Below are positions 10,939 through 15,880 of a stretch of DNA of 24,136 bases, one piece after another. The position numbers and the translations under genes are program-made. Origin of the DNA: a virus; IMG/VR virus record IMGVR_UViG_3300034095_000642, positions 1-24,136 of that record. The stretch is one strand, 5' to 3'. Every line of letters begins with the position of its first letter. The first letter of the stretch is position 1. Under the pieces are notes generated by a model, which searched no databases, was not told the DNA's origin, and saw nothing but the letters and a program-made list of their open reading frames with translations.

Positions 10939-10969
10939 TTAACTATAACTATAAGAGTAAATAACAATG
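10939..10969 (+). promoter_or_regulatory. Repeated leader element, copy 1
   Basis: TTAACTATAACTATAAGAG lies at 10939-10957, the start of a 31-base block that includes the exonuclease ATG and matches copy 2 at 16583 in 26 of 31 positions. It is preceded by a weak hairpin (10921-10934) and a T run. AACTATAA resembles the initiation end of SP6/T7-class promoters, though no such polymerase is in the window. It may instead be a conserved translation leader. Confidence 0.45.
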
Positions 10970-11830
10970 GAACAACAAAGAACAGAAGAATGGTTTAAAA
11001 AAAGAAATGGTCGTGTAACTGGATCAAGTGTCGGTGCAATCTTAGGGTTATCTCCCTTCATGAAACGTGAAGATGTTATGCGTAATATGGTGCGTCAATA
11101 TCATGGCTACCCAAGTGAGTTTACCGGTAATGTTGCGACTAGCTATGGAACGTATAACGAACCCAATGCTTTAGCTGATTACGAATTGAAGTTTAATACA
11201 AAAGTCGTAGAAACTGGTTTTCATACTTATGAAGAATGGCTTGGAGCATCGCCAGATGGATTAATAGATGAAGATGGATTGATAGAAGTTAAATGTCCAT
11301 ATGGTTTGCGTGATAAAAACCCACCAGAGTTTAAAAGCATAGACTACCAAACGCATTATTGGATGCAAATACAAATACAGTTGCTAGTAACTGGTCGTGA
11401 ATGGTGTCATTTCTACCAATGGTCAGCACATGGTTACATGCTTGAAACAGTGCAATTTAATCCATTAGCTATTGAAGAATATTTACCAAAATTAAAAGAC
11501 TTCTACAATGAATATCTTGTTGAGCGTGAACTACCACAAGCACAAAAGTATTTAGAAGAAAAACGCAAACAAGTTAGGTGTGAAGGTCAAGTTGATCGTT
11601 ACTTAATGATTGCAGATCAGATAAAAGAACTTGAAGCAGAAAAGAAACGATTGCTAGATGAAATAGTTAAGTTAGCTGATGGCAAAGATAGTGAAATTAA
11701 TGGTCACAAACTAACTAAAGTTACCAAATCTGGTTCTATATCTTATGCTAAAGCAGTTAAAGAACTTTTACCAGATGTTGATCTTTCTGATTACACTAGT
11801 GATCCAATTAGTTATTGGAGATTAACATGA
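10967..11830 (+). CDS. YqaJ-type viral exonuclease (recombinase nuclease)
   Basis: The 287-residue protein resects DNA ends to give single strands for the annealing protein. The N-terminal signature is EEWFKKRNGRVTGSSVGAIL with LGLSPF following. The PD-(D/E)XK core is GASPDGLIDEDGLIEVKCPYG, whose Asp is at about 97 and Glu-x-Lys at about 107-109. A helix with an earlier acid (NEPNALADYE) and QTHYWMQIQIQLLVTGREW follow, all as in the YqaJ family. The C-terminal third contains a coiled coil (KELEAEKKRLLDEIVKLADG). Its last codons contain GGAG, which serves as SD for the next gene, and its TGA overlaps that gene's ATG. Confidence 0.92.
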   Translation: MEQQRTEEWFKKRNGRVTGSSVGAILGLSPFMKREDVMRNMVRQYHGYPSEFTGNVATSYGTYNEPNALADYELKFNTKVVETGFHTYEEWLGASPDGLIDEDGLIEVKCPYGLRDKNPPEFKSIDYQTHYWMQIQIQLLVTGREWCHFYQWSAHGYMLETVQFNPLAIEEYLPKLKDFYNEYLVERELPQAQKYLEEKRKQVRCEGQVDRYLMIADQIKELEAEKKRLLDEIVKLADGKDSEINGHKLTKVTKSGSISYAKAVKELLPDVDLSDYTSDPISYWRLT

Positions 11831-12489
11831 GTGAATTAATTGAAATATTAATAAAAAGTATAAATGAACTTGATTTAGAAAAAAAAATAATTGCAATAAA
11901 TGAAGTTAGAGAAAAAATACATTTAATAAGTCCTTTTAAAAATGAACCTGTTGATTTTGTTAAATGGGTTAAAAATGAAAATGTATATCAAAATGATTAC
12001 AATCCAAATAGTGTTGCTCCACCGGAAATGGAATTACTTAGATTATCTATTTCAGAAGATGGATATACACAACCTATAGTTTCTATGCCTGATGAAAGTG
12101 AAAAATATGAAGTTATTGACGGTTTTCACAGACATAGAGTTGGAAAAGAATGTAAAGACATACAAGAAAAAATACTTGGATATCTTCCTATTGTACAAAT
12201 AAGAGAAGATCAAAAAGATAAAACAGACAGAATGGCATCAACCATTAGGCATAACAGAGCAAGAGGAAAACATAAAGTTGAATCTATGTCTGACATTGTT
12301 ATTGAGCTTAGCAGAAGAAACTGGTCTGATGAAAAAATAGCTAAAAATCTTGGAATGGATTCTGATGAAGTTTTAAGATTAAAACAAATAAGCGGATTAG
12401 CTGAAATGTTTTTAGATGAAGATTTTTCTGAAGCATGGGATGTTGTTTTTGATGACGATAATGATTTTGAAGGATTAGAAGATGAATAG
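11827..12489 (+). CDS. ParB-like (IbrB-type) protein of a three-gene cassette
   Basis: The 220-residue protein starts MSELIEILIKSINELDLEKK. A ParB/Srx-like core follows: YNPNSVAPPEMELLRLSISE, QPIVSMPDE, and the signature YEVIDGFHRHRVGKE, in which DGFHRHR corresponds to the nucleotide-binding DGxHR motif. A helix-turn-helix (NWSDEKIAKNLGMDSDEVLR) and an acidic tail complete it. The layout matches IbrB, the ParB-related partner of IbrA in E. coli phage islands, more than plasmid-partition ParB. GGAG lies six bases before the ATG, and a TTG four codons upstream is less likely. Composition is AT-richer than flanking genes, and Arg is mostly AGA. Whether it binds DNA, hydrolyses CTP/ATP or acts as a nuclease is not visible. 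Confidence 0.75.
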   Translation: MSELIEILIKSINELDLEKKIIAINEVREKIHLISPFKNEPVDFVKWVKNENVYQNDYNPNSVAPPEMELLRLSISEDGYTQPIVSMPDESEKYEVIDGFHRHRVGKECKDIQEKILGYLPIVQIREDQKDKTDRMASTIRHNRARGKHKVESMSDIVIELSRRNWSDEKIAKNLGMDSDEVLRLKQISGLAEMFLDEDFSEAWDVVFDDDNDFEGLEDE

Positions 12490-12907
12490 AATTTATCATA
12501 CTTGGGAAAAATGGGAATGTTATCCAGCTGGGTTTTATGAAAACAAACCTAAAGACAAAGCATTATCAGATGGTGATTGCAAAAAAAAATATGCTGAATT
12601 TTTAAGCGATATTCCAATGTTTGAAGCAGCAATGCAATCAATATTATTAGAATGGAAAAATTCATGTGAGCATTATTTATCAAATGAAAAAATGAATAGA
12701 ATTGCATGGCTTGGTCAAGCATCAATGTGTTATGCAACTGGAATACCATCAAAATTTTGTGGAGGATTTTATTTTTTATCAGAAGAACAGCAAAATTTAG
12801 CAAATTTAAGTGCATTAAAATTTTTAAATAAATGGTTGAAAAAACACGGTGAAGATGAATTATCTCTTGACCAAGCACAATCTAAAACAGAAGCGAACTT
12901 ATACTAA
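12482..12907 (+). CDS. Middle protein of the IbrB/IbrA-like cassette, unknown function
   Basis: The 141-residue protein starts MNRIYHTWEKWECYPAGFYE. It has no domain I can name. It is dense in residues that often mark conserved sites: CYPAGFYE, a SCEHYLSNEKMNRIAWLGQA segment, SMCYATGIPSKFCGGF, and a C-terminal NLANLSALKFLNKWLKKHGE helix. Four Cys and several Trp and His could form a metal or cofactor site. AAGGA lies seven bases before the ATG. The gene overlaps the ParB-like gene by 8 bases and the PP-loop gene by one, so all three are translated as a unit. I recall similar proteins beside IbrA/IbrB-like genes in other phages, which suggests a fixed partner, but that needs a search. Confidence 0.65.
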   Translation: MNRIYHTWEKWECYPAGFYENKPKDKALSDGDCKKKYAEFLSDIPMFEAAMQSILLEWKNSCEHYLSNEKMNRIAWLGQASMCYATGIPSKFCGGFYFLSEEQQNLANLSALKFLNKWLKKHGEDELSLDQAQSKTEANLY

Positions 12908-14100
12908 TGAAAAGATTACTAGGAATTAATGTTTTTGAAGCAGCTCAACAAAGAATAAATTATTCTTTTGATAATTTTGAAAAAGTTTATTTATCTTTTT
13001 CAGGAGGAAAAGATAGTAGCGTTATGTTCCATCTAACAATGATGGAAGCAAAAAAAAGAAATAAAAAAGTAGGAATATTAATTATTGATCTTGAAGCTCA
13101 ATATAAATCTACTATTGAGCATATAGAAGAGATGGTTGCTATGTATAAAGATAATATTGATCTTCATTGGTTATGCTTTCCATTATTATTAAGAAATGCA
13201 GTAACAGTTTTTGAGCCAAGATGGACTGCATGGGATGAAGAAAAAAAAGATATATGGGTAAGGCAAAAGCCAAAACTTGCTGCTAAATGTGAAGATTATC
13301 CTTTTTATCAACCAAATATGGAATTTGAAGAATTAACTGTTTTGTTTGGATTATGGTATGCACAAGGAAAAACATGCGCTGGATTAATTGGGATAAGAGC
13401 AGATGAAAGTTTAAATAGATATAGAACTGTTACTGTATTTGATAAAAAAATGCATGGAAATAATAGATATACAACTTATATAGGCGACAATTTGTTTAAT
13501 GTTTATCCAATTTATGATTGGAAAACAGAAGATATATGGAGATTTCATTCTAAGTTTAAAAACTTATCAAGCAATAAAATATATGACCATATGCACAAAG
13601 CTGGTGTTCCAATAAGCCAACAAAGACTTTGTCAGCCTTATGGAGATGATCAAAAAAAAGGATTATGGTTGTATCACATCCTTGAGCCTGAAACTTGGTT
13701 TAAATTAATAGCTAGAGTAAATGGAGCTAATTCAGGCGCACTTTATGTTCAAGAATCAGGCAATATAACTGGAAGCAATAAAATATCTAAACCTGAAAAT
13801 CATACTTGGAAAAGTTTTTGTAATTTATTATTAAAGTCTTTGCCTAAAAAAAATAGAGATCATTATATAAAGCGATTTAGAGTTTTTATTAAAGGATGGA
13901 AACTAAGAGGATATGATGAAATACCTGATTTTGCTCCAAAGACTCTTGAAGATAAACAATGGGCTCCATCATATAGAAGATTATGCAAAGTTTTGTTAAG
14001 AAATGATTATTGGTGCAAAGGTCTTGGATTAACTCAACCAAAAAGTGACGCTTATGGAAAGTACTTACAATTAAAAAAACAAAAAATAGTTGGCTTTTAA
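12907..14100 (+). CDS. PP-loop (PAPS reductase-family) protein, IbrA-like
   Basis: The 397-residue protein has the PP-loop SFSGGKDSSVMFHL (SGGKDSS at residues 32-38), which binds ATP to adenylate a substrate. LIIDLEAQYKSTIEHIEEM, GIRADESLNRYRT and VYPIYDWKTEDIWRF follow, a set shared with IbrA-type/DUF3440 phosphoadenosine-phosphosulfate-reductase-like proteins. It lacks the C-terminal ECGLH motif of assimilatory CysH, and its length is much greater, so a metabolic sulfate-reduction role is unlikely. Several Cys (LAAKCEDYPF, GKTCAGLIG, QRLCQPYGDD) might hold an Fe-S cluster as in DndC. Almost every Arg codon is AGA, and G+C in sampled lines is near 25-30%, below the neighbours. The reaction is unknown. 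Confidence 0.8.
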   Translation: MKRLLGINVFEAAQQRINYSFDNFEKVYLSFSGGKDSSVMFHLTMMEAKKRNKKVGILIIDLEAQYKSTIEHIEEMVAMYKDNIDLHWLCFPLLLRNAVTVFEPRWTAWDEEKKDIWVRQKPKLAAKCEDYPFYQPNMEFEELTVLFGLWYAQGKTCAGLIGIRADESLNRYRTVTVFDKKMHGNNRYTTYIGDNLFNVYPIYDWKTEDIWRFHSKFKNLSSNKIYDHMHKAGVPISQQRLCQPYGDDQKKGLWLYHILEPETWFKLIARVNGANSGALYVQESGNITGSNKISKPENHTWKSFCNLLLKSLPKKNRDHYIKRFRVFIKGWKLRGYDEIPDFAPKTLEDKQWAPSYRRLCKVLLRNDYWCKGLGLTQPKSDAYGKYLQLKKQKIVGF

Positions 14101-14101
14101 A

Positions 14102-15880
14102 ATGAAACTCCGACCATACCAACAACAAGCACATGATGCAGCTATAGATTGGATAAAGAAATGTACTGATCCATGCGTATTAGAATTGCCAACAGGAAGT
14201 GGCAAATCTTTAATTGTTGCAGCAATAGCAAATACACTACACCAAGTTAGTAGTGGTAAACATATATTGTGTCTTGTCCCATCAAAAGAGTTACTGGAGC
14301 AGAATGCAGAAAAGTACCGAGATACTGGCAATCAATGCAGTTTGTTTAGTGCCAGTGTTGGTGAAACTTGTTTAAAACATCCAGTAGTGTTTGGCACACC
14401 TGTTAGCGTCAAGAATAAGATTCATCGTTTTGGAGCTAAATTTTGTGCGGTTGTACTTGATGAAGCGCACCGTATAACACCAACAGTTAAGAGTATTATT
14501 GAGTCTTTAGTTGCTTGTAATCCTAATCTGCGTGTAATAGGTCTTAGTGCTACCCCATACAGACTTGGTGATGGCTATATATATAGAATGGATGAGCATG
14601 GTAATGCGCATGGAAATGATAAAACTAAGAACCCTTATTTTACTGCAAGAGTATTTACTGTTTATGCCAGAGATTTAATACAGCAAGGATACTTAACAAA
14701 ACCTGTTATTGGTGCAATTAATTCAGGTCATTATGAAACTCTGGAAATGCAACTTAATAGCATGGGTAAGTTTGCAAAAGCAGATGTTGATAGAGCTTAT
14801 CATGGACAAGGAAGGCTTACCAGTGCGATTGTAGGCGATATTGTATCGCAAGCAGTAGATAGGCAAGGTGTAATGATTTTTTCTGCGACAGTGCAACATG
14901 CTCACGAGGTTATGCAGTCTTTACCACCAAGTTTATCTTGCATAGTGACAGGAGAAACACCAAAGAAGGAACGAGAAGAAATACTGCGAAAATTCAAATC
15001 TAAGCAATTAAAATATTTAGTCAATGTGTCAGTCTTAACCACTGGTTTTGATGCTCCACACGTTGATTTAATAGCTATTTTAAGAGCTACAGAGTCAGTT
15101 AGTTTGCTTCAACAAATAATTGGCAGAGGATTGCGTATTGATAACAATAAACATGATTGTTTAATATTAGATTATGCTGAAAATATAAGCAGACATTGTC
15201 CTGATGGTGACTTATTTAATCCAGAGATAGAAGCATCAGGTGATTACGGAGCTGGTGAACCAATAAAAGCTAGATGTCCACAGTGCAATGCTAACAATGA
15301 GTTTGCTCCTGTTCCTAATGAAGCAAGTCATAAAATTGATGATTTTGGTTATTTTACTGATCTTGAAGGAATACGACTAGAAACAGAATATGGAGAGATG
15401 CCAGCGCATTATGGAAGAAGATGTTTTGGTGAGGTATTTAATAAAACTATTAAAAAGTTGGTTAGATGTTCTTATCGCTGGACGTTTAAACCGTGTCCAC
15501 ATTGTGAAGAAGAAAATGATATTGCAGCGAGATATTGTTGTAGTTGCAAAGGAGAATTGATTGATCCCAATGAAAAGTTAATTGCTGACTTTCAAATGAA
15601 AAAGAAAGATCCTTACTCTATGCAAACAGATAATGTTATTGACATGAAAGTACGACCAACTATTAGCAAAGCTGGAAATGAATGTTTAAGAGTTGATTTC
15701 ATAACCGAGTATAGGTCATTCCCAGTATGGTTTACCATGAAGATGCAGAGTAGCTATGATGCATTTATGAGGTTTACTGATGGAGGGTTTACAACGCCAA
15801 ATACTATCACTTATAAAAAGAGTGGTGATTTCTTTAGGATATACGATTACAACAGGACAGCTGATGAAGTTCCACAATGA
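14102..15880 (+). CDS. Superfamily 2 DEAH-box helicase with zinc-ribbon insert
   Basis: The 592-residue protein translocates on DNA and probably unwinds recombination or replication intermediates. Motifs from the ATG at 14102: Q-like RPYQQQA at 4-10, Walker A LPTGSGKS at 29-36, DEAH at 120-123, SATP at 149-152, motif V TTGFDAPHVD near 320, and motif VI QQIIGRGLR near 345. A C-terminal region has CPQC and, later, CPHC and CCSC pairs, likely one or two zinc ribbons. The final part (KVRPTISKAGNECLRVDFIT) reads as a small beta domain. The ATG follows the previous TAA by one base and has almost no SD. A TTG at 14090 is an alternative. Its natural SD may have been displaced by the cassette upstream. 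Confidence 0.88.
   Translation: MKLRPYQQQAHDAAIDWIKKCTDPCVLELPTGSGKSLIVAAIANTLHQVSSGKHILCLVPSKELLEQNAEKYRDTGNQCSLFSASVGETCLKHPVVFGTPVSVKNKIHRFGAKFCAVVLDEAHRITPTVKSIIESLVACNPNLRVIGLSATPYRLGDGYIYRMDEHGNAHGNDKTKNPYFTARVFTVYARDLIQQGYLTKPVIGAINSGHYETLEMQLNSMGKFAKADVDRAYHGQGRLTSAIVGDIVSQAVDRQGVMIFSATVQHAHEVMQSLPPSLSCIVTGETPKKEREEILRKFKSKQLKYLVNVSVLTTGFDAPHVDLIAILRATESVSLLQQIIGRGLRIDNNKHDCLILDYAENISRHCPDGDLFNPEIEASGDYGAGEPIKARCPQCNANNEFAPVPNEASHKIDDFGYFTDLEGIRLETEYGEMPAHYGRRCFGEVFNKTIKKLVRCSYRWTFKPCPHCEEENDIAARYCCSCKGELIDPNEKLIADFQMKKKDPYSMQTDNVIDMKVRPTISKAGNECLRVDFITEYRSFPVWFTMKMQSSYDAFMRFTDGGFTTPNTITYKKSGDFFRIYDYNRTADEVPQ

Follow-up and report, generated by a model that had tools for sequence, protein, structure and literature searches.

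The closest described relatives of the genes considered here are IbrA/IbrB of Escherichia coli ECOR-9 and YbdN/YbdM of E. coli K-12, which belong to the same two protein families and are likewise encoded by adjacent, overlapping genes (L086). Neither IbrA/IbrB nor the phage genes labelled "PAPS reductase / cysH" (PAPS, 3'-phosphoadenosine 5'-phosphosulfate) that lie beside ParB genes have a settled function, and they are often counted as sulfur metabolism. Two DNA-modification systems offer further parallels: Dnd, in which a PP-loop enzyme of the PAPS-reductase fold has a partner from the ParB superfamily (PMC10853773), and Dpd, in which a ParB-like ATPase, DpdB, stands beside the base-altering DpdA (PMC12839542). 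Here, we examine IMG/VR virus record IMGVR_UViG_3300034095_000642, the whole 24,136-base stretch of which is referred to as the window, and in it a cassette at positions 11827-14100 made of three genes: B (IbrB/YbdM-like), M (a new family) and A (IbrA/YbdN-like). The cassette differs from IbrA/IbrB and YbdN/YbdM, which have no M, are ordered A then B, and are chromosomal and core in E. coli. We consider it likely that B-M-A is a transferable phage DNA-modification (anti-restriction) cassette, which probably marks the phage's own DNA chemically and so shields it from host defences.

The main argument for such a function is that the cassette swaps with DNA-modifying genes at variable sites, and this was found at three junctions in three phage lineages. 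At junction 1, between a YqaJ-type recombinase gene and a helicase gene (56 contigs), the site is empty in 10 contigs and holds B-M-A in seven. Eleven more carry a second version, ordered as A, a cupin of the ectoine-synthase type (PF06339 2e-44), B, M and a separate 75-aa copy of the A C-terminal domain. This version is seen at L104:3222-6001 and also in L083 and L084 (Gaia), and the Gaia annotation treats cupin and B as a single multidomain protein. One contig holds a decayed copy of the cassette. The other occupants are HNH genes (10 contigs), a phrog_799 DNA methyltransferase (10), a phrog_757 DNA methyltransferase (two), both methyltransferases together (one), Mom (one; PF25680 2e-43), a QueD plus DpdA-like queuine transglycosylase pair with an HNH gene (one, L140), and a 339-aa protein with no Pfam or PHROG match (two; L111:5829-6899 and L128:6843-7877). 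All identified cargo at junction 1 other than the HNH genes and the cassette consists of DNA-modifying enzymes, of four unrelated kinds. Phage Mu Mom and the orphan phage methyltransferases share the identical YqaJ/helicase junction with the cassette in sister phages (L116, L118, L141, L146-L158), although they are unrelated enzymes whose DNA-modifying activity is known or predicted; likewise, the DpdA of Dpd is a TGT-fold transglycosylase, whereas A is a PP-loop enzyme.

The same kind of exchange recurs elsewhere. In a second phage lineage, junction 2 is occupied by the cassette in L054, L055, L162 and L166 and by an N6_N4 DNA methylase in L163; L160 and L161 have a YspA/SLOG gene there. Junction 3, between HNH and terminase genes in a third lineage, is empty in 58 contigs and holds the cassette in six, a helicase–N6_N4 methylase fusion in four, phrog_424 in six and a radical-SAM gene in five. 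In addition, A is naturally fused to an N6_N4-type DNA methylase (PHROG 67 2e-51) at L066:6427-8529, on a contig that also has a fused B-M gene. The N6_N4 methylase domain occurs in only two of 128 sampled neighbouring proteins, one of which is very probably this fusion itself. Exchange at the three junctions and the fusion of an IbrA-type protein to a DNA methylase lend weight to the modification role that had been suggested in an earlier note on this DNA, made from the sequence alone.

Some further cargo of these sites can be described on its own account. By eye, the 339-aa protein of L111 and L128 is glycosyltransferase-like and possibly a further DNA-modifying enzyme. The phrog_424 protein of junction 3 is a different PP-loop "PAPS reductase" (L213:1972-2832), and with the radical-SAM protein phrog_9298 (L188:1700-2668) it represents candidate DNA-modification chemistry.

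The cassette forms a discrete insertion for which an empty counterpart site exists, and its three genes make up a single functional unit. Among relatives found through YqaJ, 10 contigs have an empty site, with a gap between the YqaJ and helicase genes of 0 in nine and 5 bp in one. The empty site of L120 reads ...AGTTATTGGCTTTTAAAATGAAACTCC..., while the window has ...AGTTATTGG followed by AGATTAACATGAGTGAA at the left border and AATAGTTGG followed by CTTTTAAAATGAAACTCC at the right. Comparison of these sequences indicates that the insertion is flush and that the end of A restores the YqaJ tail and the helicase start. The B start overlaps the YqaJ end by ATGA, and B, M and A overlap head to tail. 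In the decayed copy (L119:6849-8345), a 10-bp repeat, GCATGGGATG, present in B and A has recombined to leave an in-frame B/A chimera without M or the PP-loop. The positions of the features in the window are collected in Table 1.

Table 1. Features of the cassette and its borders in the window
Feature	Position	Strand	Evidence and remarks
YqaJ/lambda-exonuclease-type recombinase	10967..11830	+	Left border of cargo site; PF09588 2e-21
B, IbrB/YbdM-like ParB/Srx-superfamily protein with helix-turn-helix, 220 aa, motif DGFHRHR	11827..12489	+	PF02195 6e-6; PHROG 2159 2e-70
M, 141-aa all-helical protein, new phage-specific family	12482..12907	+	Predicted structure; gene-fusion partner of B
A, IbrA/YbdN-like PP-loop enzyme (SGGKDS, GxRxxESxxR) with DUF3440, 397 aa	12907..14100	+	PF11922 4e-34; PF01507 1e-14
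Right junction: A 3' end TTGGCTTTTAAAATG, a copy of the empty-site YqaJ tail plus helicase start	14090..14104	+	L110, L117, L120 empty sites
RadD-like superfamily 2 (SF2) helicase	14102..15880	+	Right border of cargo site; NF053632 2e-150; ATG at 14102

Composition also sets the cassette apart. Its G+C content (GC) is 29.0% against 35.4% for the whole record, and of 2187 sliding windows of 2274 bp only 5 reach so low a value; the minimum, at 11621, belongs to a window that overlaps the cassette. At third codon positions, GC is 12-16% in the cassette genes against about 21-27% in flanking genes, and AGA accounts for 31 of 34 Arg codons in the cassette, compared with 3 of 14 in the YqaJ gene and 14 of 31 in the helicase gene. 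The earlier note had described three tightly overlapping genes between a YqaJ exonuclease and an SF2 helicase, AT-richer than their surroundings and with AGA as nearly every Arg codon of the PP-loop gene, and these positions and biases were confirmed; its description of M as rich in Cys and Trp applies to a moderate degree (5 Cys and 5 Trp in 141 aa). Its proposal that the genes are transferred cargo also holds, in that the cassette is portable, with precise empty sites in close relatives and the triad in otherwise unrelated contexts. The AT bias, however, may be partly intrinsic and not solely due to recent transfer, because the GC of the cassette falls below that of the flanking DNA in 49 of 61 loci (mean -4.2 points; the loci are not independent). 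As to the right-hand neighbour, an intein-like insertion interrupts the RadD-like helicase of one relative (L124:3600-4934) right after VVLDE of the DEAH box, continuing with CFTGETLISTPSGKKRIDEI.

A scan of 2.9 million viral contigs for M yielded 80 loci. B immediately precedes M in 79 of them and A immediately follows it in 79, both exceptions ending at a contig edge. Across 51 loci, the genes in common are those of the cassette alone (B/M in 51, A in 49), and the most frequent other neighbour, a helicase, is present in 11. The three genes also show correlated distance matrices (Mantel r 0.63-0.85, 0 of 2000 permutations). M is a phage-specific family, since it was found in only five of about 85,000 bacterial and archaeal genomes, all of them contigs of metagenome-assembled genomes (MAGs), in no plasmids, and in six cultured-phage records; no cultured phage related at the DNA level was found. 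Pairs of A and B without M are nevertheless common: besides E. coli YbdN/YbdM, with YbdN present in 5382 of 5426 complete E. coli genomes, they occur in phages of Streptococcus, Lactobacillus, Flavobacterium, Mycobacterium (Athena type), Bacillus, Arthrobacter and Rhizobium, and on the A tree the M-bearing proteins are scattered, each near M-less kin. The expectation in the earlier note that M accompanies A and B is therefore borne out, whereas M is not simply the "missing component" of the system that it was suggested to be, because IbrA/IbrB pairs without it include the core YbdN/YbdM of E. coli.

A few loci stand somewhat apart. In L091-L096 (Taranis, PJN03, Athena, Kovu, 031MP004 and RHph_I4), A is shorter, two or more ParB-like genes are present, and the genes often adjoin the terminase. 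A "DNA methyltransferase" annotated beside IbrA in Rhizobium phage RHph_I4 was dropped as evidence because that protein matches the ParB profile. DUF3440 genes also occur in two very short records, OR851112.1 and OR848903.1 (2.8 and 3.2 kb; "Salmonella phage" and "Listeria phage"), which are possibly host DNA.

B belongs with IbrB/YbdM by a subfamily hidden Markov model (HMM; E 7e-91 to YbdM), by PHROG 2159 and by its position adjoining A. It falls short of models for PRTRC and plasmid-partition ParB proteins (TIGR03734, 21 bits against a cut-off of 279; TIGR00180, 20 against 58), and no ParA was seen between the borders of the cargo site. M has no match in Pfam, PHROGs, NCBIfam or PADLOC; none of 49 homologues has a convincing Pfam match, and searches of PDB sequences with M as a single sequence and as a profile found nothing. 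B and M share one reading frame in 47 loci (45 viral and two MAG contigs), with M at the C-terminus of B; on the A tree, this fused state requires a minimum of three changes, one of them forced by well-supported branches. In the structure predicted for a natural fusion, the M domain is all-helical, mostly with a predicted local distance difference test (pLDDT) score above 92. The matches listed for this model include KorB/Noc/ParB, SbnI, SerK and Srx, and all those among the best 50 listed from PDB and BFVD appear to lie on the ParB side. The invariant residues of M are H5, E11, W57, S60, E62, N71 and W117.

A belongs with IbrA/YbdN (DUF3440): it matches both PF01507 and PF11922, and HMM comparison groups it with YbdN. 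Its motifs GxRxxESxxR and P-I-x-D-W are invariant, and the ATP-pyrophosphatase loop SGGKDS is intact. Structure comparison places its fold closest to CysH, followed by CysD, TtuA and NcsA. Among 98 A homologues, however, the C-terminal CysH catalytic motif ECGLH (ECG[IL]H) is missing from every one, as is CG[ILMV]H, which E. coli CysH carries at 239; moreover, the PP-loop of CysH reads SSSFGIQ in place of SGGKDS, and A bears a C-terminal DUF3440 extension. By motif, A is therefore not a PAPS reductase, and with the catalytic Cys missing, a cysH identity was rejected.

These features allow a mechanism to be proposed. A would use its ATP-pyrophosphatase loop to adenylate a group in DNA, either a base or a phosphate, after which a nucleophile would be installed. 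B, with its ParB/Srx fold and helix-turn-helix, would bind DNA and a nucleoside triphosphate and bring A to its target, as the ParB-like DndB and DpdB accompany the modification enzymes of Dnd and Dpd. M may be a helical subunit on B that tunes specificity for the substrate or for partners, and the resulting mark would shield the phage DNA against host nucleases. That the longer version adds an ectoine-synthase-type cupin suggests that there the installed group can undergo further processing. More specifically, and only tentatively, the cassette could represent a new class of DNA hypermodification, in which A, having neither an iron–sulfur (Fe-S) cluster nor a catalytic Cys, would adenylate a DNA base in a TilS-like manner and attach a non-sulfur group, guided by the ParB-type clamp and M, with the cupin cyclising the product in the longer version.

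Several observations weigh against a DNA-modification cassette. HNH, radical-SAM and YspA/SLOG genes and two family-less genes use the same junctions, so that exchange there establishes a common cargo niche without implying the same function. The A–methylase fusion is a single instance, and the core chromosomal status of YbdN/YbdM in K-12 would be odd for an anti-restriction system. E. coli IbrA/IbrB have been described as prophage gene activators (Sandt 2002, as cited in PMC10434257).

Among the alternatives, a phosphorothioate system would have A introduce sulfur into the DNA backbone as DndC does, B take the regulatory part of DndB, and the host IscS supply the sulfur. A lies in the same PP-loop group as DndC and weakly matches the PADLOC profiles of DndC (3.5e-7) and BrxP (2.3e-3), a ParB-like DndB does accompany DndC (PMC10853773), and in the window-type clade of A, every sequence keeps C90 and C242, and nearly all keep C370. 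C90 is replaced by Ala in YbdN and in the M-bearing L085, however, and C242 by Ala in the Gaia type; no cysteine is conserved family-wide in the alignment, and CxxC is present in two of 98 proteins. A DndC-like Fe-S enzyme is thus unlikely for the A family as a whole, though the window-type clade may still include one. The DndC/DndB parallel drawn in the earlier note is supported in part, by the shared PP-loop group. DndC, moreover, has a 4Fe-4S cluster and a Cys dyad and needs DndD, DndE and a desulfurase, none of which is among the 25 commonest of the 76 Pfam families in the 128 neighbouring open reading frames sampled, from fragmentary records. We consider this explanation improbable.

It is similarly doubtful that B-M-A serves to co-activate transcription of phage genes, in the way reported for IbrA/IbrB with eib genes. 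The predicted architecture of B is ParB/KorB-like and DNA-binding, in keeping with a regulator, and the IbrAB phenotype in E. coli is published (cited in PMC10434257). Regulation alone leaves unexplained the intact PP-loop, GxRxxESxxR, the swaps with Mom, methylases and DpdA, and the methylase fusion; eib activation could itself result from DNA modification.

Defence genes are often carried at variable phage sites, and the cassette might accordingly be a phage-borne defence system, acting in superinfection exclusion or as a nucleotide-targeting effector. A role as effectors has been proposed for ParB/Srx proteins (PMC10853773). PADLOC models remain unmatched beyond the weak DndC and BrxP hits of A and a weak Csm2 hit of B; the identified non-HNH cargo at junction 1 marks or protects DNA and does not kill, and M is almost absent from bacterial genomes, all of which makes this explanation quite improbable. 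That A is a PAPS reductase raising host sulfate assimilation, as the usual label on such phage genes and the nearest solved fold would have it, is highly improbable given the missing ECGLH motif and the ATP-pyrophosphatase-type loop, and constant ParB and M partners and swaps with DNA-modification genes would be unexpected of an assimilation enzyme.

In the open-licence literature, no proposal was found that IbrA/IbrB modify DNA, and ybdN/ybdM and DUF3440 appear there in only one regulatory study and one toxin survey. Deletion of citR raises ybdNM transcription in E. coli (PMC9068703), and one study notes that homologues of PAPS reductase in phages could have roles outside sulfur metabolism (PMC11437467). 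Both the A and the B family have been described before, whereas M, its fusion to B, the version with EctC and the exchange of cargo at the sites seem to have gone unreported. DNA modification is the role suggested by the natural swaps with Mom, DNA methylases and DpdA, and E. coli ybdN/ybdM and mycobacteriophage Gaia make it directly testable. If this is true, phage counter-defence would gain a new chemistry and, in M, a new protein family, and some of the viral cysH genes would have been misread.

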